From the NCBI RefSeq assembly GCF_003417465.1, contig NZ_QVMV01000052.1, forward strand, positions 1 to 64,000: a stretch of DNA of 64,000 nucleotides, read 5' to 3'. A program made the position numbers and the translations under genes. Of this stretch, positions 3,531-34,326 are shown piece by piece. A model generated the notes under the pieces. It made no database searches. It saw only the letters and a program-made list of their open reading frames with translations, and was not told where the DNA came from. The DNA comes from Wenzhouxiangella sp. 15190. GTDB taxonomy: Bacteria; Pseudomonadota; Gammaproteobacteria; Xanthomonadales; Wenzhouxiangellaceae. Numbering within the stretch: position 1 is the stretch's first letter; the number at the start of each line of letters is the position of its first letter.

Positions 3531-4220
3531 ATGGGTCACAAGGTACATCCAACCGGTTTTCGTCTCGGGATCGCCAAGGACTGGGGCGCCAAGTGGTATG
3601 CGGAGTCGCGCGATTTCGCGGACCAGCTCAACACTGACCTCAAGGCTCGGGCGTTCCTGCAGAAGGCGCTTTCGCATGCTGCGGTCAGTCGCATCGAGAT
3701 CGAGCGTCCGGCCAAATCGGCCGAGATCACCGTGCATACGGCGCGTCCGGGCATCGTCATCGGCAAGAAGGGCGAGGACATCGAGAAACTGCGTCGTGAA
3801 GTGGGCAAGATCATGGGTGTGCCGACCCATATTCGCGTCAACGAGATTCGCAAGCCGGAACTCGATGCGCGACTGGTGGCCGAAAGCATTGCCCAGCAGC
3901 TCGAGCGTCGCGTAATGTTCCGCCGCGCAATGAAGCGTTCGGTGGGGAACGCCATGCGACTCGGCGCCCAGGGCATCAAGGTACAGGTGGGTGGTCGCCT
4001 CAACGGTGCCGACATCGCTCGCAGCGAGTGGTATCGCGAAGGTCGCGTGCCGCTTCACACGCTGCGCGCCGATATCGACTACGGCACGGCCGAGGCCGCA
4101 ACGACGTACGGCGTCATTGGTATCAAGGTCTGGGTGTACAAGGGCGAGGTTTTCGACCTGTACGCCGAGAAGAGTTCGGAAAATGCACCGGCCAAAAGCG
4201 GTGCACGCAAGGAGAACTGA
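3531..4220 (+). CDS. rpsC: 30S ribosomal protein S3
   Basis: The protein has 229 aa. It has the N-terminal [14 protein letters not shown] signature and a type II KH domain with the [17 protein letters not shown] loop. S3 forms part of the mRNA entry tunnel and helicase of the 30S subunit. It starts 2 bp after the rplV stop. The C-terminal tail ([16 protein letters not shown]) is basic and low in complexity, as is usual. Confidence 0.98.
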
Positions 4221-4223
4221 ATC

Positions 4224-4634
4224 ATGCTGCAGCCGAAACGCACCAAGTTCAGAAAGCAGCAGAAAGGACGCAATCGCGGCCTGGCTCACGTGGGCAATCG
4301 CGTCAGCTTTGGCGAGTACGGCCTTCAGGCGACCACGCGCGGTTTCATCACCGCACGCCAGATCGAGTCGGCCCGTCGTGCCATTACGCGCCACGTCAAG
4401 CGTGGCGGGAAGCTCTGGATTCGCGTGTTCCCCGACAAGCCGGTGAGCAAGAAGCCGGTTGAAGTCCGCATGGGCAAGGGTAAGGGTAACGTCGAGTTCT
4501 GGGTGGCCCCGATCCAGCCCGGGCGAGTGATTTACGAGATTCAGGGCGTCAGCGAAGACGTGGCGCGCGAAGCGTTCCGCCGCGCCTCGGCCAAGCTGAG
4601 CGTCCGCACCACCTTTGTAGCGAGGACGCTGTAA
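4224..4634 (+). CDS. rplP: 50S ribosomal protein L16
   Basis: The 136-aa protein starts [20 protein letters not shown]16 helps position A-site tRNA. It contains the [20 protein letters not shown] and [17 protein letters not shown] blocks; the arginine in the latter region (VRMGKG) corresponds to the residue hydroxylated in E. coli L16. The stop shares one base with the rpmC start (TAATG). Confidence 0.98.
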
Positions 4635-4834
4635 TGAAAGCGAGTGAACTGCGTGACAAGAATTCCAGCGAGCTCAACAGCATGCTCCTGGATCTGCGCA
4701 AGGAGCAGTTCTCCCTGCGTATGCAGCACGGTACCGGCCAGTTGGGCACACCCCATGATATGCGCCGTGTCCGCAAGGAGATTGCACGGGTCAAGACCGT
4801 GCTCAACCAGAAGCAGGATGAGAAGCAGGCATGA
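4634..4834 (+). CDS. rpmC: 50S ribosomal protein L29
   Basis: The short 66-aa helical protein starts [15 protein letters not shown] and has the [16 protein letters not shown] and [14 protein letters not shown] helices of L29. It sits at the tunnel exit next to L23. It overlaps rplP by 1 bp and rpsQ by 4 bp. Confidence 0.97.
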
Positions 4835-5091
4835 GTAGCGAAGAACGCAAGCAACGCAGTGTCGTCGGACGCGTCGTGAGTAGCAGGATGGACAAGACCG
4901 TGACGGTTCGTCTCGAGCGGTTGGTCAAGCATCCGCTGTACGGCAAGTACGTTCGCCGTTCGAGCAAGGTGCATGCTCATGATGCCGACAACGACTGCAA
5001 TGAAGGCGATACCGTGCGTATCGAGCAGACCCGGCCGATCTCCAAGACCAAGGCCTGGCAAGTAATTGAAGTGGTCGAACGGGCCCAGTAA
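4831..5091 (+). CDS. rpsQ: 30S ribosomal protein S17
   Basis: The 86-aa OB-fold protein contains [32 protein letters not shown], the S17 signature. It binds 16S rRNA helices 7 and 11 early in assembly. The ATGA overlap with rpmC implies coupled translation. It is the last gene of the S10 block. Confidence 0.97.
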
Positions 5092-11605: not shown

Positions 11606-12232
11606 ATGGCTAGATATATTGGACCAACCTGCAAGCTCGCACGCCGCGAGGGCGTTGACCTCAACCTCAAGAGCCCCGCGCGCGGACTCGAGTCGAAGTG
11701 CAAACTGAACCAGCCGCCGGGCCAGCATGGCGACAGCCGTCGTCAGCGCCTGTCGGACTATGCGTTGCAGTTGCGCGAAAAGCAGAAGGTGCGCCGGATG
11801 TACGGCGTGCTCGAGAAGCAGTTCCGTAACTATTACAAAGAAGCGGCACGACGTAAGGGTGCGACCGGCGAGAACCTGTTGCAGCTTCTCGAGGGCCGCC
11901 TGGACAACGTCGTCTACCGGCTCGGTTTCGCGGTGACCCGGGCGCAGGCGCGTCAGATGGTCAGCCACAAGTCGGTCGAGATCAACGGCAAGGTGGTCAA
12001 TATTCCCTCCTACCAGGTGCAGCCGGAAGACCGCGTCTCGATCCGGGAAAAGGCCAGGAAGCAGCTGCGCATCCAGGAAGCCATCAATGTGGCGCGCGAA
12101 CTGGATCTGGTTCCGACATGGATCGACGTGGACTTCGACAAGATGGAAGGTGTTTTCAAGGGCGCTCCGGATCGCGATGATCTGCCGCCGGATATCAACG
12201 AAAACCTCATCGTCGAGCTGTACTCGAAGTAA
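11606..12232 (+). CDS. rpsD: 30S ribosomal protein S4
   Basis: The 208-aa protein starts [19 protein letters not shown] and carries an S4 RNA-binding domain ([24 protein letters not shown]). S4 is an assembly initiator of the 30S body. In E. coli it represses the alpha operon. No N-terminal zinc knuckle is present. Confidence 0.98.
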
Positions 12233-12289
12233 GCCGCAGGCCTTCAAGCGCCTGCGCTGCAAACGAAAACCGATTTTGGAGAGGCAAAC

Positions 12290-13294
12290 ATGTCAGGCCA
12301 GATAAGCGAACTTATCGGCACGATGCTCAAGCCCAAGGGCCTGGTTGTCGACGAGATCTCGTCGCGACGAGCCCGCATTACGCTCGAGCCGCTGGAACGC
12401 GGCTTCGGGCACACACTGGGCAATGCCCTGCGGCGCATACTGCTGTCGTCGATTCCCGGTAGTGCGATCACCGAAGCCGAGATCGACGGCGTGCTTCATG
12501 AGTACACGTCTGTCGAAGGCTTGCAGGAAGATATCGTCGAGGTCATGCTCAACCTCAAGGATGTCGCCATTCGCATGCACAGTCGCGATGAGGCCACCCT
12601 GACCCTGAGCAAGGACAAGGCCGGACCGGTCACCGCGGGCGACATCCAGCTCGATCACGACATTGACGTGCTCAACCCCGAACACGTGATCTGCAACCTG
12701 ACGAAGGCCAGCAAGCTGCGCATGCAGCTCAAGGTGACCCGGGGCGTCGGCTACCAGCCGGCTGCGGCTCTGAAGTTCAACGAGGAGGAGACGCGCACGA
12801 TCGGTCGTCTGCAGCTCGACGCTTCCTACTGCCCGGTCCATCGCGTGGCCTACAGCGTCGAGAGCGCTCGCGTTGGCCAGCGCACCGACCTGGACAAGCT
12901 GGTTCTGGACATCGAGACCAACGGCACGATGAGCTGCGAGGACGCCGTGAAGCTGGCTGCCGGCATTCTGGTCGACCAGATGTCGGTGTTTGTCGACTTC
13001 GTCGCCCGGGAAAAGGACGAGACGGAAACGACGACCGAGAGTTTCGATCCCATCCTGCTACGCCCGATCGACGATCTGGAGTTGACGGTACGTTCGGCCA
13101 ACTGCCTGAAGGCCGAGCACATCCAGTATGTCGGTGACCTGGTGCAGCGGACGGAGACCGAGCTGCTCAAGACACCCAACCTGGGCAAGAAGTCCCTGAC
13201 CGAGATCAAGACGGTGCTGGCGACCCACGATCTGTCGCTGGGTACCCGCCTGGAGAACTGGCCGCCGCCGTCGCTGGCGCGCACCGAGCACTGA
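12290..13294 (+). CDS. rpoA: RNA polymerase alpha subunit
   Basis: The 334-aa protein has an N-terminal dimerisation domain with [16 protein letters not shown] and a C-terminal domain (about 245-325) with [26 protein letters not shown], which contacts UP elements and activators. The family is usually ~329 aa. SD GGAGAGGC precedes ATG 12290. Confidence 0.98.
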
Positions 13295-13304
13295 GGAGAA
13301 AACG

Positions 13305-13691
13305 ATGCGTCACCGTAAAGCAGGTCGCAAGCTCAACCGGAATTCGCCACATCGCCGAGCGATGTTCCGTAACATGACTGCCAGCCTGATCGAGCACGAG
13401 CTCATCAAGACCACGCTGCCCAAGGCCAAGGAGCTGAGGCGCGTGGCCGAACCGCTGATTACGCTGGCCAAGGAAGACAACGTTTCCGCCCGTCGCCTGG
13501 CATTCAATCGCCTGCGTGATCGCGACGCCGTGGGCAAGCTCTTTTCGGAGCTCGGTCCGCGGTACCGCGAACGCCCCGGCGGCTATCTCCGCATTCTCAA
13601 GTGCGGTTTCCGGCCCGGCGACAATGCGCCGATGGCGTATGTGGAATTGGTCGACCGCCCGGACGCGCCGAGCGCGGAGACAGCTGAATAG
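13305..13691 (+). CDS. rplQ: 50S ribosomal protein L17
   Basis: The 128-aa protein begins [21 protein letters not shown], the L17 signature. It is the last gene of the ribosomal superoperon, 10 bp behind rpoA. The conserved [26 protein letters not shown] block closes the domain. Confidence 0.98.
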
Positions 13692-13718
13692 CATCCGGAT
13701 CGAGACCGGAGGTTCAGG

Positions 13719-13749
13719 AAGCCCGGCCCTCGTTGCCGGGCTTTTTTTG
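13719..13749 (+). terminator. Intrinsic terminator of the alpha operon
   Basis: A perfect 9-bp stem AAGCCCGGC / GCCGGGCTT with a 7-nt loop is followed directly by a run of seven T (13742-13748). It begins 28 bp after the rplQ stop. It is the clearest rho-independent terminator in the window. Confidence 0.93.
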
Positions 13750-13857
13750 TTCAGAGACTTCTTCGCATGAATCCGAGATCACGGTTGGACGTGGGCTACA
13801 ATGTGCGACTGCGGGTCGTTGTTTCCCGCCTCACCGTTGAATGACCCGGATTCTCGG

Positions 13858-26385: not shown

Positions 26386-27012
26386 TTAACGACCTTCGAC
26401 CCAGTCGATCGCTGCCTGCAGCAAGTGACGGCTGTTTTCGAGATTCAGTTTTTGCTTGATGTTGTCCGCGTGCGCCTCGATGGTCTTGGTGCTGATGTTG
26501 AGCTTTTCGGCAATCTCCCTGTTGGTCCGCAACAGACCGATTTCCTCAAAAACTTCTGCTTCGCGCCGGGTCAGTAGCAGATCCCGGGGTTTCAGGCTCC
26601 CGGGTACCGGACATTTGTTGCATGCGTCTCGACCGAATGATCGCCGTGTGCAGTCGATTATGCGATCCAGGTAGTGTTTCAGTCTTGACTCGGGTGCACG
26701 TGCCGGGAAGAACCCGCAGGCATCACACTGGCGTATGGGCAAACGAATGCCGGCATGATTGCGTTCGGAGACCATCAGAATTCTGGGCTTGTTTTCCAGG
26801 GGGGGCAGGTGCGGAACGACCCGTGCGGAGAGTTCGCTGTCGAGCACCAGGATGTCGATGTCGCCACGTCCGATGGCGGCAACAGCCTCATCGATACTTT
26901 GAACGGCCAGTTCGACATCGTCATGTGCCAACTTCTGGAGCGTGTATTCGACACCCCGGGCGAAGATTTCGCTGTCGATGAGCAGGGATACCTTGATCGA
27001 TGCGTTCGGCAT
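26386..27012 (-). CDS. LuxR/FixJ-type regulator with five-cysteine linker
   Basis: The 208-aa protein begins MPNASIKVSLLIDSE. Residues ~5-115 resemble a receiver domain (IDILVLDSEL places an aspartate at 58, but the first acidic pocket is weak). Residues ~143-205 form a LuxR helix-turn-helix (LLTRREAEVFEEI, REIAEKLNISTKTIEAHADNIKQKL). Between them are five cysteines: C96-x2-C99, C121, C131-x2-C134, an unusual set that could bind an Fe-S cluster or zinc. The ORF opens further upstream, but ATG 27012 starts the domain. It is divergent from the GTPase/globin operon and may control it (inference). Confidence 0.82.
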   Translation of the reverse strand: MPNASIKVSLLIDSEIFARGVEYTLQKLAHDDVELAVQSIDEAVAAIGRGDIDILVLDSELSARVVPHLPPLENKPRILMVSERNHAGIRLPIRQCDACGFFPARAPESRLKHYLDRIIDCTRRSFGRDACNKCPVPGSLKPRDLLLTRREAEVFEEIGLLRTNREIAEKLNISTKTIEAHADNIKQKLNLENSRHLLQAAIDWVEGR

Positions 27013-27078
27013 ACGCGTGGTTCGGCATTGAATTAGAAAGAACGCATAGATTATGCCAGTTGCATCTGTCACATAAAT

Positions 27079-27097
27079 ATCGGGGAATCCCCGATAG
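27079..27097. promoter_or_regulatory. Perfect 8-bp inverted repeat, candidate operator
   Basis: TATCGGGG-AAT-CCCCGATA lies in the 295-bp gap between the divergent LuxR-type gene (start 27012) and the operon starting at 27308. It is 67 bp upstream of the regulator start, in a locally AT-rich stretch, and has no adjacent T-run. Symmetry and position fit a dimeric regulator site. Nothing else in the rest of the gap is recognisable to me except scattered short palindromes. Confidence 0.5.
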
Positions 27098-27307: not shown

Positions 27308-27994
27308 ATGCAGTCTTCCACTCACGATTGGTCAGGCAAGTTCGATGAAGCGAACGGGCATCGTTGTCCGGCCCCATCGATTCCCAGGTTTGCACCTTCC
27401 GACTGCATGCTGGGTGAAGTGCTCCGGGTTCTGGAGCACTCGCGCGATGGGGTCTGTGTATCGGTAGCCGAAGCCGGTCGAATCTGGATCGATCCAGAGC
27501 TTCGACAATATCGCGATGAAATCACATCGCCCGATGTGTTCTTCAAGGTGCCGGTCGGTGCGGCAGAGGTCGTTCATGAAACCGCTTCGGACGGAGCGGG
27601 TGCGCCCAGGCCGATCGATGAACTGCTCTATCGGACGGCCTACCACGGTGCGGATGGCGCCTTGCTGGATCGGTGCCAGCCCTACGACGTAATCGAACTC
27701 AAGTACTGGCCGAATTTCACGCGCCTCCCGCATACGCGTCACATGATCACGCTGTGTTCGCTGTTGTCGCGACGCCCCACCAGCCTTTCGTTTGCCTACC
27801 GGATGCTGAAGATTCCCGAGGCGGATGCATTGCGCTTCTGTAGCGCCGTCAATGCAGCCGGCTACACCAAGGTGGTGAGTTCGCAGCCGGCGAGCGATGC
27901 AGCCGGCCCCGGGAACCCGTCGGCCGATTTGAATGCTTCCGGAGCCTCGGGCAGCTTCTGGTCGAGATTGTTCGATCGGATCGCCGGGTTGTAG
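27308..27994 (+). CDS. Unrecognised protein, first gene of GTPase/globin cluster
   Basis: The 228-aa soluble protein has no signal peptide or membrane segment. I do not recognise a family. The middle part (about 95-130) is acidic and includes IDELLYRTAYHGADGALLDRCQPYDVIELKYWPNF. Residues ~135-190 (HMITLCSLLSRRPTSLSFAYRMLKIPEADALRF) look like a small helical or winged-helix domain. The tail is Ala/Ser/Gly-rich with an amphipathic end (FWSRLFDRIAGL). GGGGG lies before ATG 27308; an internal ATG at 27407 is an alternative. It is 2 bp from the GTPase gene, so it is probably a partner or effector; DUF742 proteins hold a similar place in Streptomyces conservons, but homology is not shown. Confidence 0.7.
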   Translation: MQSSTHDWSGKFDEANGHRCPAPSIPRFAPSDCMLGEVLRVLEHSRDGVCVSVAEAGRIWIDPELRQYRDEITSPDVFFKVPVGAAEVVHETASDGAGAPRPIDELLYRTAYHGADGALLDRCQPYDVIELKYWPNFTRLPHTRHMITLCSLLSRRPTSLSFAYRMLKIPEADALRFCSAVNAAGYTKVVSSQPASDAAGPGNPSADLNASGASGSFWSRLFDRIAGL

Positions 27995-27996
27995 TA

Positions 27997-28557
27997 ATGA
28001 ACGATCAGTTGCACAAGATTCTCTTTGCCGGGCCCGTCGGCGCGGGCAAGACCACCGCCATCACCTCGGTCAGCGATTCGCCGGTGATTGCAACCGATGC
28101 TCAGGCCAGCGATGAGGTCGTTGAACGCAAGCAGACCACGACCGTGGCGATGGATTACGGCACGCTGCAAATCGACCCACAGTTGAACATTCAGTTGGTC
28201 GGAACACCCGGGCAGGAACGATTCGGATTCATGTGGGAGATCCTGTCCCGGGGGGCGATCGGCGTTGTATTTCTGATCGACAATGCGCGTCCGGAGCCGT
28301 TGGCCGACATGGCGTTCTACATCGACGCCTTCCGTACCCTGGTCGACAGACAGGGGGGTGCGGCGGTGGTCGGCGTTACGCGTAGCGACCTGGCGCCCAG
28401 CCCGGGCCTCGACCGATATCGTGAAGAACTGATCCGGATGGGGTATCGACTACCCGTATTCGAAGTCGACGCGCGCAAGCGCGACGACGTCAAGGTCGCT
28501 TTGCTGGCACTGGCCTCGGAACTCAACCCCACCACCTATTGGCGCCAGCGAGCATGA
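27997..28557 (+). CDS. Small GTPase of the conservon CvnD / MglA type
   Basis: The 186-aa Ras-like GTPase has P-loop GPVGAGKTT (12-20), a switch I region KQTTTVAMDYG (45-55), a G3 motif VGTPGQERF (68-76) in which the usual DxxG aspartate is replaced as in the MglA/CvnD group, and a G4-like TRSD (128-131). Such GTPases work with roadblock/LC7 proteins that act as GAPs or regulators; two roadblock-type genes lie downstream. It overlaps the ABC-phosphatase gene by 4 bp (ATGA). It is likely cytoplasmic, with an unknown target. Confidence 0.87.
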   Translation: MNDQLHKILFAGPVGAGKTTAITSVSDSPVIATDAQASDEVVERKQTTTVAMDYGTLQIDPQLNIQLVGTPGQERFGFMWEILSRGAIGVVFLIDNARPEPLADMAFYIDAFRTLVDRQGGAAVVGVTRSDLAPSPGLDRYREELIRMGYRLPVFEVDARKRDDVKVALLALASELNPTTYWRQRA

Positions 28558-29909
28558 CGCCCGTGTCACAACATTTCACTACGCGCGATTCCGTGCTCCG
28601 GCTCGATGGTTTCGGGGCCGGTTTCGGCGATCGGGTCATACTCGCCGAAATCGATCTCGAAGTGCCCGATAACGGCTTGATGGCACTGATGGGTCCGACG
28701 GGTGTCGGCAAGTCGACCTTGCTCCGGACCGTCTGCGGCGCGGCACAGCAGAACGCCAGTTTCAAGAGCTGGGGCGAGATGCGCTACCTGGCGTTGGTGG
28801 CCGGTGAGGCTGGCTGGCCGAGGCTGGTCATGCAGGATGCGCGACTGCTTGTGTCGACGGTCTACGAAAACCTGGTCAGTGGCCTGTCCAATCGTTCCCG
28901 TCTGACGCTGCCCGAGCAGCGCAAGGCCCTGACGCGCGTCCTGGAAGAGTTGGACAGCGACCGGTTCATGGGCTGTCTGGAGCAGTCCGTCGTGGAACTG
29001 TCTCTGGCCGATCAGCGTCTGATCGCAATCTTGCGCCATGTGCTTTCCGAGCCGGGCTTGTTGTGCGTTGACGAGCCGACAGTCGGACTCGACGAAGCCG
29101 GTTCCAGGAGCGTGCTCACGCTTCTGGCCCGCTACGCCGAGCAACGGCCGGTTCTGATGGCCACGCACAACCTGGCGCAGGCTGGTGATTGGGCCGACTA
29201 CGTGGCCCTGCTTGTCAGCGGCCGCATCCGGGAACTCGCCCCGGCGGAAACGTTTTTCACTTGCCCGGAGACTGAGGCCGGCCGTGCATTCATTCGGCAG
29301 GGAACCTGTGCAAGCCCGAGCCCGGACATTACAGCGGAAGTGCTCGACGAAGACACACCGCCGCCACCGCCGCTACCTGAAAAGGCGCATCAGGCCATGA
29401 ACGCCTGGGCCGGACCACGTGGTTTCGTCTGGCTCGACCCCGGCGAACTCGCCGGCACGCCGCGGCCCGGCGTGATCCACAACGTGGAGCAGGATCTCGA
29501 TGCCCTGGCCCGCGTGGGCGTGACACGCCTGCTGACCTTGCTCGAAACACCGCTTGATTGTGATGCCGCCCTGGCCGAGCGCGGCATGCAATCAATGCAT
29601 ATCCCGGTCGACGACATGACAGCGCCGACGGTCACGCAAGCGGTGACTTTCTGTCGCCAGATCTGGCGCTGGATCCAACAGGGTGAGGTCGTCGCAGCGC
29701 ACTGTCACGCCGGCCATGGCCGAACGGGAACGGCACTTGCCGCCTACCGAATATGGCAAGGGCTTGCGGCCGTTGAAGCCATCGAAAGCCTTCGCGCAAT
29801 CGAACCACGCTGGATCCAGTCGCGCGAGCAGATCGAGTTTCTCGAACGATTCGAGAAGTTTACGCAATCGCCCGAGCATCGCCCCTCCGGCGAGCCCGGG
29901 TATGCGTGA
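28554..29909 (+). CDS. ABC ATPase fused to dual-specificity phosphatase
   Basis: The 451-aa protein starts at ATG 28554 (ATGA overlap with the GTPase). Residues ~15-245 are a soluble ABC ATPase: Walker A GPTGVGKST (47-55), Q-loop Q94, degenerate signature LSLAD (149-153, normally LSGGQ), Walker B LLCVDEP (169-175), H-loop H205. A proline-rich linker (269-274) leads to a Cys-phosphatase domain (~288-435) with the CX5R loop HCHAGHGRTG (C384, R390) and a candidate general acid in PVDDM (D353/D354). No permease partner is encoded nearby, so a signalling role is more likely than transport. A fusion of these two enzymes is unusual. Confidence 0.85.
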   Translation: MTPVSQHFTTRDSVLRLDGFGAGFGDRVILAEIDLEVPDNGLMALMGPTGVGKSTLLRTVCGAAQQNASFKSWGEMRYLALVAGEAGWPRLVMQDARLLVSTVYENLVSGLSNRSRLTLPEQRKALTRVLEELDSDRFMGCLEQSVVELSLADQRLIAILRHVLSEPGLLCVDEPTVGLDEAGSRSVLTLLARYAEQRPVLMATHNLAQAGDWADYVALLVSGRIRELAPAETFFTCPETEAGRAFIRQGTCASPSPDITAEVLDEDTPPPPPLPEKAHQAMNAWAGPRGFVWLDPGELAGTPRPGVIHNVEQDLDALARVGVTRLLTLLETPLDCDAALAERGMQSMHIPVDDMTAPTVTQAVTFCRQIWRWIQQGEVVAAHCHAGHGRTGTALAAYRIWQGLAAVEAIESLRAIEPRWIQSREQIEFLERFEKFTQSPEHRPSGEPGYA

Positions 29910-29922
29910 TCGGGTGTAATTC

Positions 29923-29950
29923 TTGCACCAGCACACACTACGACTACAAC
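29923..29950 (+). promoter_or_regulatory. Possible internal promoter before first roadblock gene
   Basis: TTGCAC (29923-29928), a 16-bp spacer and TACAAC (29945-29950) lie in the 59-bp gap after the ABC-phosphatase gene. The match is moderate. The very strong AGGAGG ribosome site that follows suggests that the next gene is expressed at a higher level than its neighbours. Confidence 0.28.
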
Positions 29951-29968
29951 TAATGAGGAGGATTACCA

Positions 29969-30376
29969 ATGTCCGATATTGATTCAGCCTTGCAACAGGC
30001 CATTCAGAGCATTCCCGAGTGCCTTGCCGCCGGCTATGTGGACCTCGAGTCGGGAATGCTGATCGGCATAAAGACAGTGGATTCGCATCCCGATGAAGTC
30101 ATGGACATGCTGGCAGCCGCGACTGCTGAAATGTTTCAAGGGTCGAACGTGGTTGCAATCGAACGCATCTTCAAAAAGGCGCGTGGCGTGGAAGACGACG
30201 GCTCGCACTATTTCCAGGAAATGATCGTAAACAGCGACAACCTGATTCATTTTTTCATGCGGGGCAAGAATGCGCCCGACCAGGTGGCGTGCTTCGTATG
30301 CCGTCGATCGGCCAATCTGGGCATGGTGGTTACAAAGGCGCGTCAGGCCATGACCACCGTCGAGGCCGCGGCCTGA
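29969..30376 (+). CDS. Roadblock/LC7-like protein 1
   Basis: The 135-aa cytoplasmic protein has a profilin-like roadblock pattern: IPECLAAGYVDLESGMLIG (two strands), a helix with DEVMDMLAAATAEMF, then strands EMIVNSDNLIHFFMR and VACFVCRRSANLGMVV and a final helix. The assignment rests on secondary-structure pattern and context rather than a strong motif. AGGAGG 5-8 bp ahead of ATG 29969 is the best ribosome site in the cluster. It is a candidate partner of the GTPase at 27997. Confidence 0.65.
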   Translation: MSDIDSALQQAIQSIPECLAAGYVDLESGMLIGIKTVDSHPDEVMDMLAAATAEMFQGSNVVAIERIFKKARGVEDDGSHYFQEMIVNSDNLIHFFMRGKNAPDQVACFVCRRSANLGMVVTKARQAMTTVEAAA

Positions 30377-30403
30377 GGGTTCATTTTTAACCGCACACCA
30401 GTC

Positions 30404-30421
30404 GGCCCGGACTACCGGGCC
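30404..30421 (+). other. Hairpin between the two roadblock genes
   Basis: GGCCCGG-ACTA-CCGGGCC (7 bp) lies in the 74-bp gap; the stem extends by three more pairs around a one-base bulge. No T-run follows. It may attenuate transcription or protect the upstream mRNA 3' end, separating the strongly translated first roadblock gene from the rest of the operon. Confidence 0.4.
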
Positions 30422-30450
30422 GGACGAACATTTCCCAGGGACTTTCAGCC

Positions 30451-30870
30451 GTGAACGATGGAACTGCCAGTCAGTCGCTCCGGGACGAGCACCCCAGAGG
30501 GTCGCGGGTCCGCTCGATTCTGCGCGGACTCATGGGGTCGACCGCCGGCAGCGTCAATGCCGCGGCCGCCATCACCAGTGACGGCATGATCATCGCCTCG
30601 GTGCTCCAGGACGGTGTCGATGCCGACCGCTTCGCCGCCATGTCGGCCTCGCTCCTGGCCCTGGCCGAGCGGGAAATCAACGAGATTCAACGCGGCCGGT
30701 TACGCCAGCTGTTGATCGAGGGCACGGAAGGTGCCGTGCTGCTGGTCCAGGCCGGCAGCGATGCCGTTCTGGCCGTCTCGGCCGAGCCGAATGCCCTCAT
30801 CGGCAAGGTATTCCTGGAGGCACGCCGCGCTGCCGGCAAGCTACAAGAGTGCTTGGCCGACGGGGAGTGA
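30451..30870 (+). CDS. Roadblock/LC7 domain protein 2 (MglB-like)
   Basis: The 139-aa protein starts with GTG 30451. After a basic N-terminus it shows a classic roadblock layout: NAAAAITSDGMIIASVLQ, the central helix RFAAMSASLLALAEREINEI, then GTEGAVLLVQAGSDAVLAVSAEP and a final helix LEARRAAGKLQECL. Family members form dimers that bind Ras-like GTPases, as MglB does with MglA. It ends 8 bp before the ferredoxin-globin gene. Confidence 0.82.
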   Translation: MNDGTASQSLRDEHPRGSRVRSILRGLMGSTAGSVNAAAAITSDGMIIASVLQDGVDADRFAAMSASLLALAEREINEIQRGRLRQLLIEGTEGAVLLVQAGSDAVLAVSAEPNALIGKVFLEARRAAGKLQECLADGE

Positions 30871-30878
30871 GGCAGACC

Positions 30879-32456
30879 ATGCAAGTGCGATATCAGCAGC
30901 ATCGTATCGAGGTGCGTGATGATGAGAGCCTGCTGTCGGCATTGTTGCGTCATGGTCTGCCGGTTCGCTATTCCTGTCGTGCCGGTACCTGCCAGACCTG
31001 CTTGATGCGTGCCACGAGCGGACGGCCGCCGGATGCGGCCCGACACGGCCTTCGTCCCGAGTTGGTCGAGCAGGGTTATTTCCTGCCCTGCAAGTGTCGG
31101 CCGACCGAACCACTGGAGGTGGAGCAGCCTTCGGTTTCGAAACTGTCGGCGGGCTGTAAGGTGACCGAGGCGAAGATGCTGGCCCCGGATATCCGCTGCC
31201 TGCGGCTGCGCTCGCACCCCGGAATCGATCCGCTGCCCGGTCAGCATATCCGGGTGATGCACCCCGATGGCCTGATGCGCTGCTATTCCGTGGCCAGCTT
31301 GCCACGCCGGGATGGTTATGTGGAACTCCATGTGCGCCGTATCGAGGGCGGCCGGGTCAGCCGCTGGTTGGTCGACGACGTGGCGGTGGGCGATTCCATT
31401 GATCTGCTGCCGGCGGCCGGCGAGCTGGTCAACCCGCAGCCCGAGGCGGACGGCGACCTGCTCCTGGTTGCCACGGGGACCGGGCTCGCGCCGCTGGCGG
31501 CCATACTGCGCGAGGCGCTCGATCGCTGCCGGGACGGGCGCATCCATTTGTTGCACGGGGTGCGACGGCGCGTGGATCTGTATGCCGATGCATGGCTGCG
31601 GGTATTGGAAGCCACTCACCGGAATTTTACCTATCTGCCCTGTTGCAGCGCCGAATCGGGCCGACAGGGCTGTTTCCACGGGCGCGTAACCGATTATCTG
31701 CGAGAAAGATTTCCCGCCGGGTTTCGGGGATGCGTTCTGCTTGCCGGGCGGCCGGATATGGTTGCCGAGGCTGCCGCCATTTGCCGTGAGCGTTGCAATT
31801 CGGTGGCGGTACGCAGTGACCCGTTTCATTTTGATCATGACGCTACGGTCGTCCCACCCTCCGGAGAAGACGAAAGGCGGGCGCCGCCACCGGATCCCGA
31901 GCTCTGGAGCAGACTGGGCAACGGCCAGGTTCTCCGCGAAGTGCTGCGCGATTTCTACGATATTGTCTTCGAGGATGAATACCTGGGGCCATACTTCGTC
32001 GGGGTGACCAGGCAACGACTCCGCGAGAAGCAGTACTCGTTTCTGCGCAGCCTGATGCTGGGAACGCGCGACTACATGGGCCAGCGGCCGCGCAATGCCC
32101 ACCACTGGATGGTGATCCCGAACTGGCTGTTCGACTATCGGCTCTCGTTGATGGAGCAATGTATGCGCGATCACGGGGTGAGCGAACCCTGGATCGAGCG
32201 TTGGCACGTTTTCGAGACCTTTTTTCGCAATGACATTGTCAAGGATGCTCCCTGGCCCAGAAGGGTTGGCCATAGCGAAGTCCTGCTGGACGGCCTTGAA
32301 CAAGCGAAACTGGAAGACGGCGGGCTGTGTGATTCCTGTGGGCGTGTTATCGAGCGGGGCGAGTCGGTCTGTTTCCACCTGCGCGAGGGCAGTCTCTACT
32401 GCGGTGACTGCAGTCAGACCGCCCCGGGTACCGAGTCATCCCGGACGGCCGTGTAA
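30879..32456 (+). CDS. Ferredoxin / ferredoxin-reductase / truncated globin fusion
   Basis: The 525-aa protein has four visible modules. (1) Residues 1-90 are a plant-type [2Fe-2S] ferredoxin with C33-x4-C38-x2-C41 and C71 or C73. (2) Residues 92-315 are an FAD/NAD(P)H reductase with RCYSVAS (134-140) and LLLVATGTGLAPL (195-207). (3) Residues ~340-460 are a truncated haemoglobin, with helix motif FYDIVFEDEYLGPYF and proximal histidine region NAHHW (H408/H409). (4) The C-terminus is a zinc-ribbon-like finger, C484-x2-C487 and C508-x2-C511. It should carry electrons from NAD(P)H to haem, as in flavohaemoglobin NO dioxygenases, but the domain order and globin type differ. ATG 30879 is chosen; a frame from 30849 overlaps the roadblock gene. 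Confidence 0.87.
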   Translation: MQVRYQQHRIEVRDDESLLSALLRHGLPVRYSCRAGTCQTCLMRATSGRPPDAARHGLRPELVEQGYFLPCKCRPTEPLEVEQPSVSKLSAGCKVTEAKMLAPDIRCLRLRSHPGIDPLPGQHIRVMHPDGLMRCYSVASLPRRDGYVELHVRRIEGGRVSRWLVDDVAVGDSIDLLPAAGELVNPQPEADGDLLLVATGTGLAPLAAILREALDRCRDGRIHLLHGVRRRVDLYADAWLRVLEATHRNFTYLPCCSAESGRQGCFHGRVTDYLRERFPAGFRGCVLLAGRPDMVAEAAAICRERCNSVAVRSDPFHFDHDATVVPPSGEDERRAPPPDPELWSRLGNGQVLREVLRDFYDIVFEDEYLGPYFVGVTRQRLREKQYSFLRSLMLGTRDYMGQRPRNAHHWMVIPNWLFDYRLSLMEQCMRDHGVSEPWIERWHVFETFFRNDIVKDAPWPRRVGHSEVLLDGLEQAKLEDGGLCDSCGRVIERGESVCFHLREGSLYCGDCSQTAPGTESSRTAV

Positions 32457-32461
32457 CCGCC

Positions 32462-34270
32462 ATGCAGTTCCGCAAGCTCGGGCTGGTCGATGGCGTATCC
32501 CACCGTGCCTGGCGAGCATTGACGCAGATCGACTCGGTGGCATTCCTGCATGTCGATCTGGAAGGGCGCATCCGCCACGTCAACGCGGGCGTTTCGCGAA
32601 TTTTCGGATATCGGCTCCAGGAACTGATCGGGCGTCCCATCGAGGTGCTGTTGCCGGAGGAGCTGAGGGAGCGGCACGCCCGGTATCTGGCTGACTATAT
32701 TACCCGTCGCGCCTCCGGGCGGATTCAGGCCTCACCGATCGTGCGTCGTACCCGTCATTTTCCGTGCGAATTGCAACAGCCGAACGGTGACTTCGTCCGT
32801 TTCACGACTGCGGATGCCGATGGTCGGGAGATTCCGATCTCTCTGACGGTCAACGAAGTTTATTCGGAGTCGGGCGAGCTAGACGGCTTCGTCGGCATGA
32901 TCGTCGATTGCTCGGAAGAACACGCACTGCACGAGCGGCTCCGGCATCAGGCGCTGCACGATCAAGCCACCGGCCTGCTCAACTGGCGGGGGTTGCACGA
33001 GGCCGTCGTCGGGCTGGAGCGCAAGAATCGGCAGGCCCATCGAGACGGGGGATACACCCTCCTGCACGTGGATATCGATCACTTCTCCGCGCTGGCCTTC
33101 GAGTGCAAGGCCGTGGCCGACCATGCCATCGTTCTGGCCGCCCGCTGGTTGAACGCTCGTGTCGAAGCGTTGACCCCACCGGGCCGGGGCCTGGTGGCGC
33201 GGAATTTCACCGCCACAGAGTTCCTGGTTCATCTCGCCGAAACGAACCTCGAAGATGCCCTTTCGCTTGCGGAGTCACTGAGAGAAGAATTCTGCACGCT
33301 CAATCTTGGCACGGACATCAACCCCTTCTACACCACCCTGAGCATCGGTGTGGCGCGAGTGGATGTCGGCATGACCCTCGATTATGTCCTTTCACGAGCG
33401 TCCAATGCTTGTTACATGGCCCAGACCCGGGGTCATGACCGGGTCGTTGCGGCTGCCGAGCGCGACATGGAGATCTACGCACTGGGACACGAGGTCCGGC
33501 AGGCATTGCGGGCGGGGCGCATCCACGTGCATGCCCAGCGGCTGGTTCCGCTGAGACGACAATCTTCCGGCAGCAAATCGGAGCCGCTGTGTTTCGAGGT
33601 GTTGTGCAGGCTGCATGACCGGCATGGCCGGGTGATCGAGCCCGGCCGGGTGTTTCCGGCAGCAGAAAAGCTGGGCCTGGCCGTCGCACTGGATCTGCAC
33701 ATGATCGCGCGCGTGCTGGAGACATTCGATCGCTATCCGGATTGCCTGGCATCGCTGGAGCGCTGTTCCATCAACCTCTCGGGTATCTCCCTGTCCAGTA
33801 TCCGCGCGATCGAAGAGATCCAGGGCCGGATCCGTAGCCACGGTGTCGATCCCGGGAGACTGTGCTTCGAGATAACCGAGAGTTCACGGATCCGCGACCG
33901 TCGTGTGGCGCTCAGCAATGTAGAGCAGCTACGGGCGATGGGTTGTCGCATCGCGCTCGATGACTTCGGCAGCGGTTACTCCAACTATCAGAGTCTCATC
34001 AAATGGCCGATCGACATCGTCAAGATCGATGGCAGCTATGTTCGCCAGATATTGAATGCCGGCCCGCTGAAGACGGACGTCGAGGGAATGATTGCTTCGG
34101 CAAAAGCCCGGGATATCGAGATCGTGGCCGAATACGTCGAGAACGAGCCGGTCGCCCAGATGCTTCGGCAGCTCGGCGTCGACTTCGCCCAGGGCTTTCG
34201 CTTTCACCGCGCCGAGCCACTGGAACAATTGTTGCGCAAGTTGGGTGATCGCCATGCCGGTTCGGTATGA
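32462..34270 (+). CDS. PAS-GGDEF-EAL protein, degenerate GGDEF
   Basis: The 602-aa soluble protein has an N-terminal PAS domain (~18-155), a GGDEF-like domain (~160-335) whose active site reads TATEF at 250-254, so it should not make c-di-GMP, and an EAL domain (~345-595). The EAL catalytic set is largely kept: E379 (EVL), N438, E470, DD500-501, K521, E557, Q577. It is therefore probably a c-di-GMP phosphodiesterase controlled by PAS and perhaps by GTP binding at the dead GGDEF site. It starts 5 bp after the globin fusion and is the last gene of the cluster. Confidence 0.88.
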   Translation: MQFRKLGLVDGVSHRAWRALTQIDSVAFLHVDLEGRIRHVNAGVSRIFGYRLQELIGRPIEVLLPEELRERHARYLADYITRRASGRIQASPIVRRTRHFPCELQQPNGDFVRFTTADADGREIPISLTVNEVYSESGELDGFVGMIVDCSEEHALHERLRHQALHDQATGLLNWRGLHEAVVGLERKNRQAHRDGGYTLLHVDIDHFSALAFECKAVADHAIVLAARWLNARVEALTPPGRGLVARNFTATEFLVHLAETNLEDALSLAESLREEFCTLNLGTDINPFYTTLSIGVARVDVGMTLDYVLSRASNACYMAQTRGHDRVVAAAERDMEIYALGHEVRQALRAGRIHVHAQRLVPLRRQSSGSKSEPLCFEVLCRLHDRHGRVIEPGRVFPAAEKLGLAVALDLHMIARVLETFDRYPDCLASLERCSINLSGISLSSIRAIEEIQGRIRSHGVDPGRLCFEITESSRIRDRRVALSNVEQLRAMGCRIALDDFGSGYSNYQSLIKWPIDIVKIDGSYVRQILNAGPLKTDVEGMIASAKARDIEIVAEYVENEPVAQMLRQLGVDFAQGFRFHRAEPLEQLLRKLGDRHAGSV

Positions 34271-34295: not shown

Positions 34296-34326
34296 CTTCA
34301 TGCCGCGCCATGGGCGCGGCATGAAG
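34296..34326. terminator. Perfect 14-bp hairpin between convergent genes
   Basis: CTTCATGCCGCGCC-ATG-GGCGCGGCATGAAG is a perfect stem with a 3-nt loop, placed between the EAL gene and the convergent ompW gene. There is no T-run on either strand. It probably ends or stabilises both converging messages; intrinsic termination is not certain. Confidence 0.5.

Follow-up and report, generated by a model that had tools for sequence, protein, structure and literature searches.

A Group 3 MglA-like gene trio shares an operon with an ABC-phosphatase, a predicted second roadblock-fold protein and a ferredoxin-globin in Wenzhouxiangella

Do the seven closely spaced genes at 27308-34270 of a 64,000-nt window from Wenzhouxiangella sp. 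15190 (the window being the whole stretch of DNA analyzed) form a unit, and if so, what would it sense and control? A preliminary description had read them as one-strand genes spaced by −4 to 74 bp. On the + strand, all seven reading frames (g1-g7) are open, and the computed intergenic gaps of 2, −4, 59, 74, 8 and 5 bp bear this out, assuming ATG starts at 28554 for g3 and 30879 for g6. The ORF list puts these two starts further upstream, at TTG 28539 and GTG 30849, respectively. The locus comprises the following features:

26386..27012, − strand: g0, LuxR/GerE-type regulator with a weak receiver-like part and four cysteines (GerE above cut-off)
27078..27096, no strand assigned: perfect palindrome TATCGGGGAATCCCCGATA, then GACAGT, between g0 and g1
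27308..27994, + strand: g1, partner protein resembling the uncharacterized Group 3 MglA partner
27997..28557, + strand: g2, small Ras-like GTPase of MglA type (Pfam ATP_bind_1/Ras; motifs)
28554..29909, + strand: g3, ABC ATPase fused to a tyrosine/dual-specificity phosphatase (Pfam ABC_tran and DSP-type PTP)
29969..30376, + strand: g4, predicted second roadblock-fold protein (no Pfam match; fold)
30451..30870, + strand: g5, Robl_LC7 (MglB-like) protein, GTG start (Pfam Robl_LC7)
30879..32456, + strand: g6, Fer2, FAD/NAD reductase, truncated-globin-like domain and C-terminal CxxC...CxxC (Pfam, motifs)
32462..34270, + strand: g7, PAS-GGDEF(degenerate)-EAL protein (Pfam PAS, GGDEF, EAL)
34301..34321, no strand assigned: strong hairpin directly 3′ of g7 (z −4.62; no T run)

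The operon is real. The terminator scan found no terminator-like site on the + strand inside 27308-34270 (3 found in all versus 6.7 expected), and the promoter scan found 1 site versus 2.1 expected. The hairpin 3′ of g7, which the terminator scan did not pick up, is a possible operon end. Among the best 80 of 190 relatives, no neighbor cluster besides g1-g6 appears in more than 9 of 82 loci, and we rejected chance adjacency on this ground. Pfam matches support the domain assignments made earlier for g2, g3, g5, g6 and g7, and g1, described there as unrecognized, indeed falls in no Pfam or NCBIfam family.

Part of this set is known in kind, as g1, g2 and g5 resemble the Group 3 MglA systems described in beta/gamma-Proteobacteria (PMC4316618, accessible text). 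The preliminary description knew of no system with this set; that statement fails for these three genes and stands for the rest, which we did not find described. The g2 motifs GPVGAGKT, GTPGQ, G4 TRSD without Lys and G5 DAR uphold its reading as an MglA-type GTPase and agree with the Group 3 list, which comprises GxxxxGKT, GTPGQ and, as features given for both MglA Groups 2 and 3 in the part of PMC4316618 consulted, a G4 without Lys and G5 DAR. That list also names a partner with a receiver-like N-terminus and a winged-helix C-terminus and one or two coupled MglB-like proteins, of which the locus has g5 by Pfam and g4 by predicted fold. Among the best 80 of 190 relatives, the GTPases in g4 loci represent 13 named families and are not strictly one clade in a tree (3 changes); four GTPases next to more distant copies of g3-g4 (L084, L089, L100) branch apart from them.

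In the ABC part of g3, Walker A/B, the Q-loop and the H-switch are kept; the signature LSLADQR replaces LSGGQ, which makes ATP turnover doubtful. The phosphatase part carries HCHAGHGRTG. As no permease domain is encoded among g0-g7, we rejected an ABC transporter. A sequence search of the PDB with g4 gave a best E of 0.13, and its AlphaFold2 model (pLDDT 89.5) matched known structures by Foldseek, best 3kye (E 6.9e-08), with MglB 6hjm at E 1.1e-07. On the basis of this model, g4 is predicted to have a roadblock/LC7-superfamily fold, as in MglB, and together with the Robl_LC7 match of g5 the earlier count of two roadblock-type proteins holds. Alignments covered the window and 71 of 83 g4 rows, the window and 21 g3 rows, and the window and 33 of 48 g1 rows.

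The gene block is common to many water and soil bacteria. Among 370 genomes of the class, g3, scored by its phosphatase part in open frames 427-709 aa long, is found in the same 10 genomes as g4 and lies adjacent to it in all 10. Each of these holds an MglA-type GTPase, compared to 77 of 370 overall, a count that includes weak partial matches (E ≤0.001; P 9e-8); it lies within about 2 kb in 8 of the 10, and the best match in G296 reaches only 101 bits. The g6 globin family was found in 7 of the 370 genomes, all among the same 10 (P 7e-13), and 6 of the 7 have it no more than 3 kb from g4; in G053 and G044, g6 is on a different contig from g4 or a g4 relative. The distribution is thus nested, with g6 found within g3/g4 genomes and these within GTPase-bearing genomes. 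In one draft congener (G029, 85% complete), g1, g2 and g4 precede glyA but g3 is missing, and a search of its genome gave no phosphatase of the g3 family (best 72.9 bits). We therefore regard g3 and g4 as near-obligate, rather than obligate, partners of each other.

A wider collection scan drew on the most similar 80 of 190 confirmed relatives, so its locus counts lean to close relatives. It yielded 79 g4 loci, of which 61 have 5 kb visible on both sides; the other 18 were set aside. Among the 61 (all 79 in brackets), g3 is present in 59 (72), a GTPase in 40 (48), g1 in 39 (47), g5 in 39 (48), g6 in 28 (37) and an EAL gene in 4 (7). Seven of the 79 lack g3: L104, L114 and L136, and also L117, L161, L168 and L180, where g4 is close to a contig end. 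Standing alone, g4 occurs in 2 of the 61 loci (best 80 of 190 relatives), and both genomes hold a g3-g4 pair elsewhere. At least five of the genes, g4 counted, are found together in 40 of the 61 loci and in several genera (best 80 of 190 relatives), as the earlier view of a unit predicted. The module was seen in only 4 of the 29 congeners, a set that includes several incomplete drafts.

The remaining conserved component, the ferredoxin-globin-zinc-type protein g6, matches Fer2, FAD_binding_6, NAD_binding_1 and Bac_globin in Pfam. Flavohemoglobins begin with a 3/3 globin, and their FAD and NAD domains come after it. The globin of g6 is C-terminal and best matches group 1 truncated globins, for which reasons we rejected a flavohemoglobin. 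In an alignment of the window copy with 25 of 38 globins, the predicted heme-pocket residues, which we take to be Phe B9, Tyr B10, Phe CD1 and the proximal His, are invariant (26/26). Of the 38 proteins, 36 have the Fer2 motif and 37 the C-terminal CxxC pairs. Classed by linker length, 23 of the 38 lack the reductase, and Pfam agreed with this class in all six proteins checked, 4 without and 2 with the reductase.

At its two ends, the locus differs from this widely conserved unit. The g7 cyclase site reads FTATEF at position 249, in line with the dead site described earlier, given the residues that we presume to matter, and its EAL motifs are present. Within the genus, a g7-like gene stands beside the unit in the window and in three congeners. 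Among the best 80 of 190 relatives, only 4 of the 61 fully visible g4 loci have an EAL gene nearby, two of these being Wenzhouxiangella. We conclude that g7 is a local addition outside the widely conserved unit, reject it as module core and drop the phosphodiesterase from the module as first drawn.

Upstream, the interval 27308-34270 is right but too narrow, as within the genus Wenzhouxiangella g0 and the palindrome (26386-27096) accompany the unit. g0 is divergent to the operon and lies just upstream; we assume its ATG at 27012 (the ORF list extends it to 27138), and its Response_reg match of 15 bits is below cut-off. The palindrome has no second site in its own genome at ≤2 mismatches, and the pattern derived from it has 1 match in the window versus 0.02 expected. 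Judged by its sequence, it is a candidate operator. g0 and the palindrome are paired in the window, in the congeners L062, L064 and L065, and also in L066; L063 has g0 with a weak site, and L099 a g0 relative near GTPases. The likeness of the sites in L062, L064, L065 and L066, partly imperfect, was read from the alignment, and an automatic scan for palindromes with 8-bp arms and ≤1 mismatch passed over those of L062, L064 and L065. The four g0 cysteines are kept in 7 of 8 aligned sequences. The exception is L169, whose g0-like gene was suggested as a module member by score and rejected because it lacks them.

Conserved gene order, the modeled g4 fold, kept active-site motifs and the nested distribution underlie our main, still tentative reading: the locus would be a Group 3 MglA-type G-protein system with a new regulatory arm that responds to gas or redox state. 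Here, g2 would alternate between GTP and GDP states, with g5 as its MglB-like GAP and g4 as a second roadblock dedicated to g3. Given the degenerate signature and an operon without a permease, the g3 ABC domain may not pump but act as a dimer clamp gated by ATP, recruiting the phosphatase and g4 to the GTPase complex or releasing them from it, such that ATP binding and dephosphorylation of a target by g3 would set the switch state. g6 would receive electrons through its 2Fe-2S domain, in one architecture through its own NAD(P)H reductase, and its globin would report oxygen, nitric oxide or redox state, possibly consuming NO meanwhile; the earlier picture of GTPase and roadblock proteins with an electron-fed globin as input is consistent with the data. 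g1 could be an effector or scaffold, and in Wenzhouxiangella g0 would govern the operon via the palindrome and g7 contribute c-di-GMP breakdown. The output would likely be type IV pilus activity.

Motility or type IV pili are perhaps what the module controls, as indirect evidence suggests. Mutating an orphan mglB in a Group 3 species changes how Snodgrassella colonies spread (PMC11112851, accessible part), and 5 of 79 loci, from two lineages, have pilT/pilU-like genes close to g3-g4 (best 80 of 190 relatives). T2SSE-type ATPases gave 9 matches in the organism's own genome, but the family also matches in 14 of 14 control genomes, so these matches say little on pili.

Other explanations divide the operon differently. 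If g6 were an NO dioxygenase supplied by an electron chain of its own, it would form an NO/oxygen detoxification island, and the GTPase, roadblock and ABC-phosphatase genes a separate signaling operon sharing a promoter with it in some lineages. Fer2-FAD-NAD-globin does read as a full NADH-to-heme chain; ferredoxin-reductase-like proteins have been proposed as electron donors to NO-acting truncated globins (PMC3820574, in the portion consulted); and g6 is missing from 33 of the 61 loci (best 80 of 190 relatives) and placed elsewhere in G053 and G044. This explanation is nonetheless unlikely: across the 370 genomes, every one with the globin family is a g3/g4 genome (7/7), which speaks against a free-standing detoxifier, and 23 of the 38 globin proteins have no reductase. 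We also doubt that g3-g4 is an independent ATP-dependent phosphatase complex with the roadblock as a dimer platform and the GTPase trio as a frequent, mechanistically uncoupled neighbor. In its favor, no GTPase is near g3-g4 in 19 of the 61 loci (best 80 of 190 relatives), and g6 is present in 5 of these 19. Such independence fits poorly with the GTPase encoded in 10/10 g4 genomes versus 77/370 overall, though weakly in G296, and with G029, where g4 remains beside the GTPase despite missing g3.

The output may also be questioned. DNA-binding winged-helix output has been proposed for Group 3 partners (accessible text of PMC4316618), so that g1 might make the module a regulator of transcription, not motility. 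The g1 model is confident, with a helical, HTH-like C-terminal part plus a short C-terminal helix (secondary structure as read by the analyst), longer homologs such as L105 have a weak receiver-like N-terminus (15.1 bits, below cut-off), and one weak fold match is the DNA-binding HTH protein 7bca (rank 25, E 2.2). We consider this improbable, since the window copy has no receiver and the g1 fold search returned nothing at E ≤0.001 (best 0.12); several of its top matches are GATOR1/SEA chains or FAM91A1. A c-di-GMP control operon with g7 as main output is very improbable, in view of the 4 of 61 fully visible loci with an EAL gene (best 80 of 190 relatives), even with g7 5 bp from its neighbor, its EAL motifs kept and its relatives beside the unit in three congeners.

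Returning to the G-protein reading, we did not find the gene combination in open-license literature; the ABC-phosphatase fusion may figure in phosphatase-family work. Group 3 MglA systems, including the Snodgrassella mgl locus, share with the operon GTPGQ, G4 without Lys, G5 DAR, a conserved partner protein, MglB-like proteins and taxa, but the accessible parts of their descriptions name partner, MglA and MglB genes only, with ABC-phosphatase and ferredoxin-globin unmentioned (PMC4316618, PMC11112851). These systems are spread across beta/gamma-Proteobacteria, and in the passages compared their inputs and regulators are unexplained. The near-obligate ABC-phosphatase/roadblock pair offers a concrete missing component and the ferredoxin-globin a concrete candidate signal input (oxygen, NO or redox), and the nested distribution makes clear predictions that can be tested in convenient laboratory bacteria, for example Marinobacter. 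The Myxococcus MglA/MglB/MglC polarity module, of a type in which GTP-dependent localization at the poles controls pili, likewise has a Ras-like GTPase and two roadblock paralogs, with the predicted g4 fold common to MglB. Unlike the operon's Group 3-like GTPase, M. xanthus MglA belongs to Group 1 (PMC4316618, accessible text), and the sources consulted in part report no ABC-phosphatase or globin as a component of the polarity module.

Taken this far, the operon looks like an undescribed route by which oxygen, nitric oxide or redox state controls cell behavior. It is conceivable, and we say so with more reserve, that g3 and g4 make a new signaling device, an ATP-gated phosphatase clamp on a roadblock platform that serves an MglA-type GTPase in cis or trans and is gated by the ferredoxin-fed globin. 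If true, this would be a Proteobacterial heme-to-G-protein relay distinct from conservons and MglA polarity modules; we know of none of such composition in Proteobacteria.

Actinobacterial G-protein systems, with their heme (P450) accessories, offer a parallel to the operon. Conservons/AGPS (CvnA-D, accessory CvnE P450) resemble it in joining a small GTPase to a roadblock protein and a partner that binds ATP, to which some of them add an accessory heme protein (PMC13343842, as far as accessible). g1-g7 have no histidine kinase or other CvnA/CvnC match, with ABC-phosphatase and globin instead, and we rejected conservon membership because no kinase domain occurs among g0-g7. Similarly, flavohemoglobins and truncated-globin/ferredoxin-reductase pairs feed a globin through an NAD(P)H-FAD chain (PMC3820574, consulted in part), whereas g6 has an N-terminal Fer2, a globin near the C-terminus and then the CxxC...CxxC tail. 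That a globin may act on a roadblock domain has been proposed before, for HGbRL of Methylacidiphilum, a single fused globin-Roadblock protein with another globin type, in contrast to the separate genes and the truncated-type globin with 2Fe-2S found here (PMC4476040, accessible sections).

Seven genes at 27308-34270 on the + strand of the window had been described as one set, and both this arrangement and the domain content claimed for the seven were borne out, the latter by domain searches. They encode a partner protein (g1), an MglA-type GTPase (g2), an ABC ATPase/phosphatase fusion (g3), a roadblock protein (g4), a Robl_LC7 protein (g5), a ferredoxin/reductase/globin/CxxC protein (g6) and a PAS-GGDEF-EAL protein (g7), with gaps of 2, -4, 59, 74, 8 and 5 bp. 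A scan of the window found no + strand terminator-like site inside the unit, and g7 is followed by a strong hairpin that lacks a T run. Downstream are an OmpW-family gene and genes that, by sequence, read as glyA, nrdR and ribD. The window belongs to contig C53, part of a 3.13 Mb genome; its closest named relatives are Wenzhouxiangella, with 93% identity in g4 to W. sediminis (L102).

Across an even draw of 370 genomes of the class (at least 90% completeness requested), the unit's families show a nested distribution. The tight g4 family is found in 10/370 genomes (>180 bits; next match 82), and the g3 phosphatase domain in exactly these ten (at least 128 bits; next 82), adjoining g4 in 10/10 as open frames of 427-709 aa, matched by the phosphatase domain. 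With a cutoff of E 0.001, the GTPase profile matches 77/370 genomes, among them all ten; the GTPase lies within ~2 kb of g4 in eight and is unlinked in G054 and G296, the latter having a weaker best match (101 bits). The g6 globin family occurs in 7/370 genomes (>150 bits; next 89), every one a g4 genome, and lies within 3 kb of g4 in six of the seven. In G053 it is on a separate contig, and in a relative, G044, globin and g4-like gene are likewise on different contigs. Hypergeometric P values are 7e-13 for globin within g4 genomes (2.5e-11 without the query genome) and 9e-8 for g4 within GTPase genomes (4.5e-7 without it); these ignore kinship, yet the ten g4 genomes bear ten different family labels. 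A further 17 genomes that lack the tight family have g4 relatives at 60-82 bits.

A g4 scan of GTDB genome contigs returned 190 relatives, and the best 80 of these lie in 79 loci, all of which we mapped. Counts rest on the 61 of these whose contig extends 5 kb or more to either side of g4. A g3 gene lies within 5 kb of g4, same strand, in 59 of them; the corresponding numbers are 40 for the GTPase, 39 each for g1 and g5, 28 for g6 (25 same-strand) and 4 for an EAL gene. The complete g1-g5 set is found in 38. The preliminary description held that conserved synteny of at least five genes in several genera would support a unit, and 40 of the 61 loci carry at least five of g1-g7. Two of the 61 have g4 alone (L114 and L136), as extra copies in genomes where g3 and g4 occur together at another locus (L120/L131 and L126). 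Neighbor clusters beyond the unit's own each occur in at most 9/82 loci; one, c10 (e.g., L106, L146, L168), encodes a PAS-containing protein reading like an Aer-type chemoreceptor and lies near the unit in 7/82. At L146, L178 and L135, g4 is duplicated, adjoining itself or flanking g3 on both sides.

Closer to the query, the order g0-g7, where g0 is a divergent regulator gene, is kept in W. sediminis (L062) and in G025 (L064), whose g6 is interrupted by a stop that separates the 2Fe-2S part from the reductase part (12189-13787). G026 (L065) keeps g0-g5, followed by genes reading as glyA-nrdR-ribD, and G045 (L066), from a different family, keeps g0-g6. On a short contig of G029 (L063), g0, g1, g2 and g4 are kept, again beside glyA, and g0 has a g7-like gene on its far side; g4 directly follows g2 (3773-4923), g3 being gone from between, and no g3-family phosphatase was found anywhere in this 85% complete draft. 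The module was seen in 4/29 congeners searched (L062, G025, G026, G029), several drafts being incomplete. Another congener, G021, has a distant GTPase (30%) accompanied by a Robl gene.

Two features lie upstream of g1:

26386-27012, − strand: g0, LuxR-type protein with four conserved Cys and a weak receiver-like part
27078-27096, between divergent g0 and g1: perfect palindrome with 9-bp arms, TATCGGGGAATCCCCGATA, candidate operator

The four cysteines are kept in 7/8 aligned sequences, and g0 is possibly a metal- or redox-sensing regulator. Related, partly imperfect palindromes occur in W. sediminis, G025, G026 and G045, with a weak site in G029. The query genome has no second TATCGGGGAATCCCCGATA site with up to two mismatches; a degenerate pattern, built from these same sites, matches once in the window versus 0.02 expected. 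The palindrome may be bound by g0.

The GTPase g2 carries a P-loop, GTPGQ, a G4 motif TRSD (no Lys) and DAR. A G4 without Lys and DAR are traits reported for MglA Groups 2 and 3 (PMC4316618), and the taxa point to Group 3. The GTPases of g4 loci (best 80 of 190 relatives) represent 13 named families and show strong clustering in a quick tree of 54 rows (3 changes vs 28.4 shuffled), without forming one strict clade; four adjoining more distant g3-g4 copies (L084, L089, L100) split off. Distant g4-like proteins (27-29% identity) adjoin other GTPase genes at L074 (9943-10359) and L089 (9717-10124).

The predicted structure of g1 (27308-27991) is confident (pLDDT 86.8), with a less certain short C-terminal helix, and we read its predicted secondary structure as containing an HTH-like helical part. 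Foldseek gave no significant match (best E 0.12); the weak matches, a lead only, include GATOR1/KICSTOR/SEA chains and FAM91A1, which we take to be eukaryotic GTPase-regulator or trafficking proteins. Longer g1 homologs in Thiobacillus-type loci have a weakly receiver-like N-terminus, and a receiver-like N-terminus is also reported for the Group 3 partner protein (PMC4316618).

The g4 protein has no Pfam match and, in its structural model, is a roadblock fold. Across 22 aligned g3 sequences, the positions we assign as Walker A, Q-loop, Walker B and H-switch are invariant, as are the phosphatase HCxxGxGRTG and one Asp; the ABC signature is degenerate. In g7, the cyclase motif is broken (FTATEF) and the EAL motifs are intact. 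The g6 globin, whose closest solved relatives are group 1 truncated globins, has FY, Phe and N-x-HHWM invariant in 26/26. Classed by linker length, 38 g6-family proteins comprise 15 with the reductase, 11 Fer2-globin proteins with a short and 11 with a middle linker, and one without Fer2; 37/38 have C-terminal CxxC pairs. By these counts, what stays constant is the 2Fe-2S, globin and CxxC tail, with the reductase an optional element. A Gallionella draft genome has a separate truncated-globin gene and an adjoining ferredoxin-reductase gene (L131, 14917-16245) ~2 kb from a g4-g3-g6 set.

The g1-g2-g5 set is known in kind; we found no description of the g3-g4 pair, the g6 family or their union in open-licence literature. 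The reading we favor is a G-protein switch responsive to gas or redox state, to which g3-g4 would add a new arm, based on Snodgrassella mglB, pilT/pilU-like neighbors and the CvnE and HGbRL precedents. In Snodgrassella, whose mglA is Group 3, an orphan mglB point mutation alters colony spreading, a change its authors tie to type IV pili (PMC11112851). P450-type CvnE is a heme accessory precedent for small-GTPase systems (PMC13343842), and signaling from globin to roadblock has been proposed for the globin-Roadblock fusion HGbRL (PMC4476040). Of such a switch, the gene unit, the fold of g4, the kept motifs and the nested distribution are observed here; every binding step, catalysis, signal and output is inferred. 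Genes resembling pilT and pilU share 20 kb with g3-g4 in 5/79 loci (best 80 of 190 relatives), in two lineages. These loci, L154, L174, L175, L177 (Stenotrophomonas) and L179 (Rhodoferax), have no nearby GTPase. The query genome has nine T2SSE-family matches, and the same family also matches in 14/14 control genomes.
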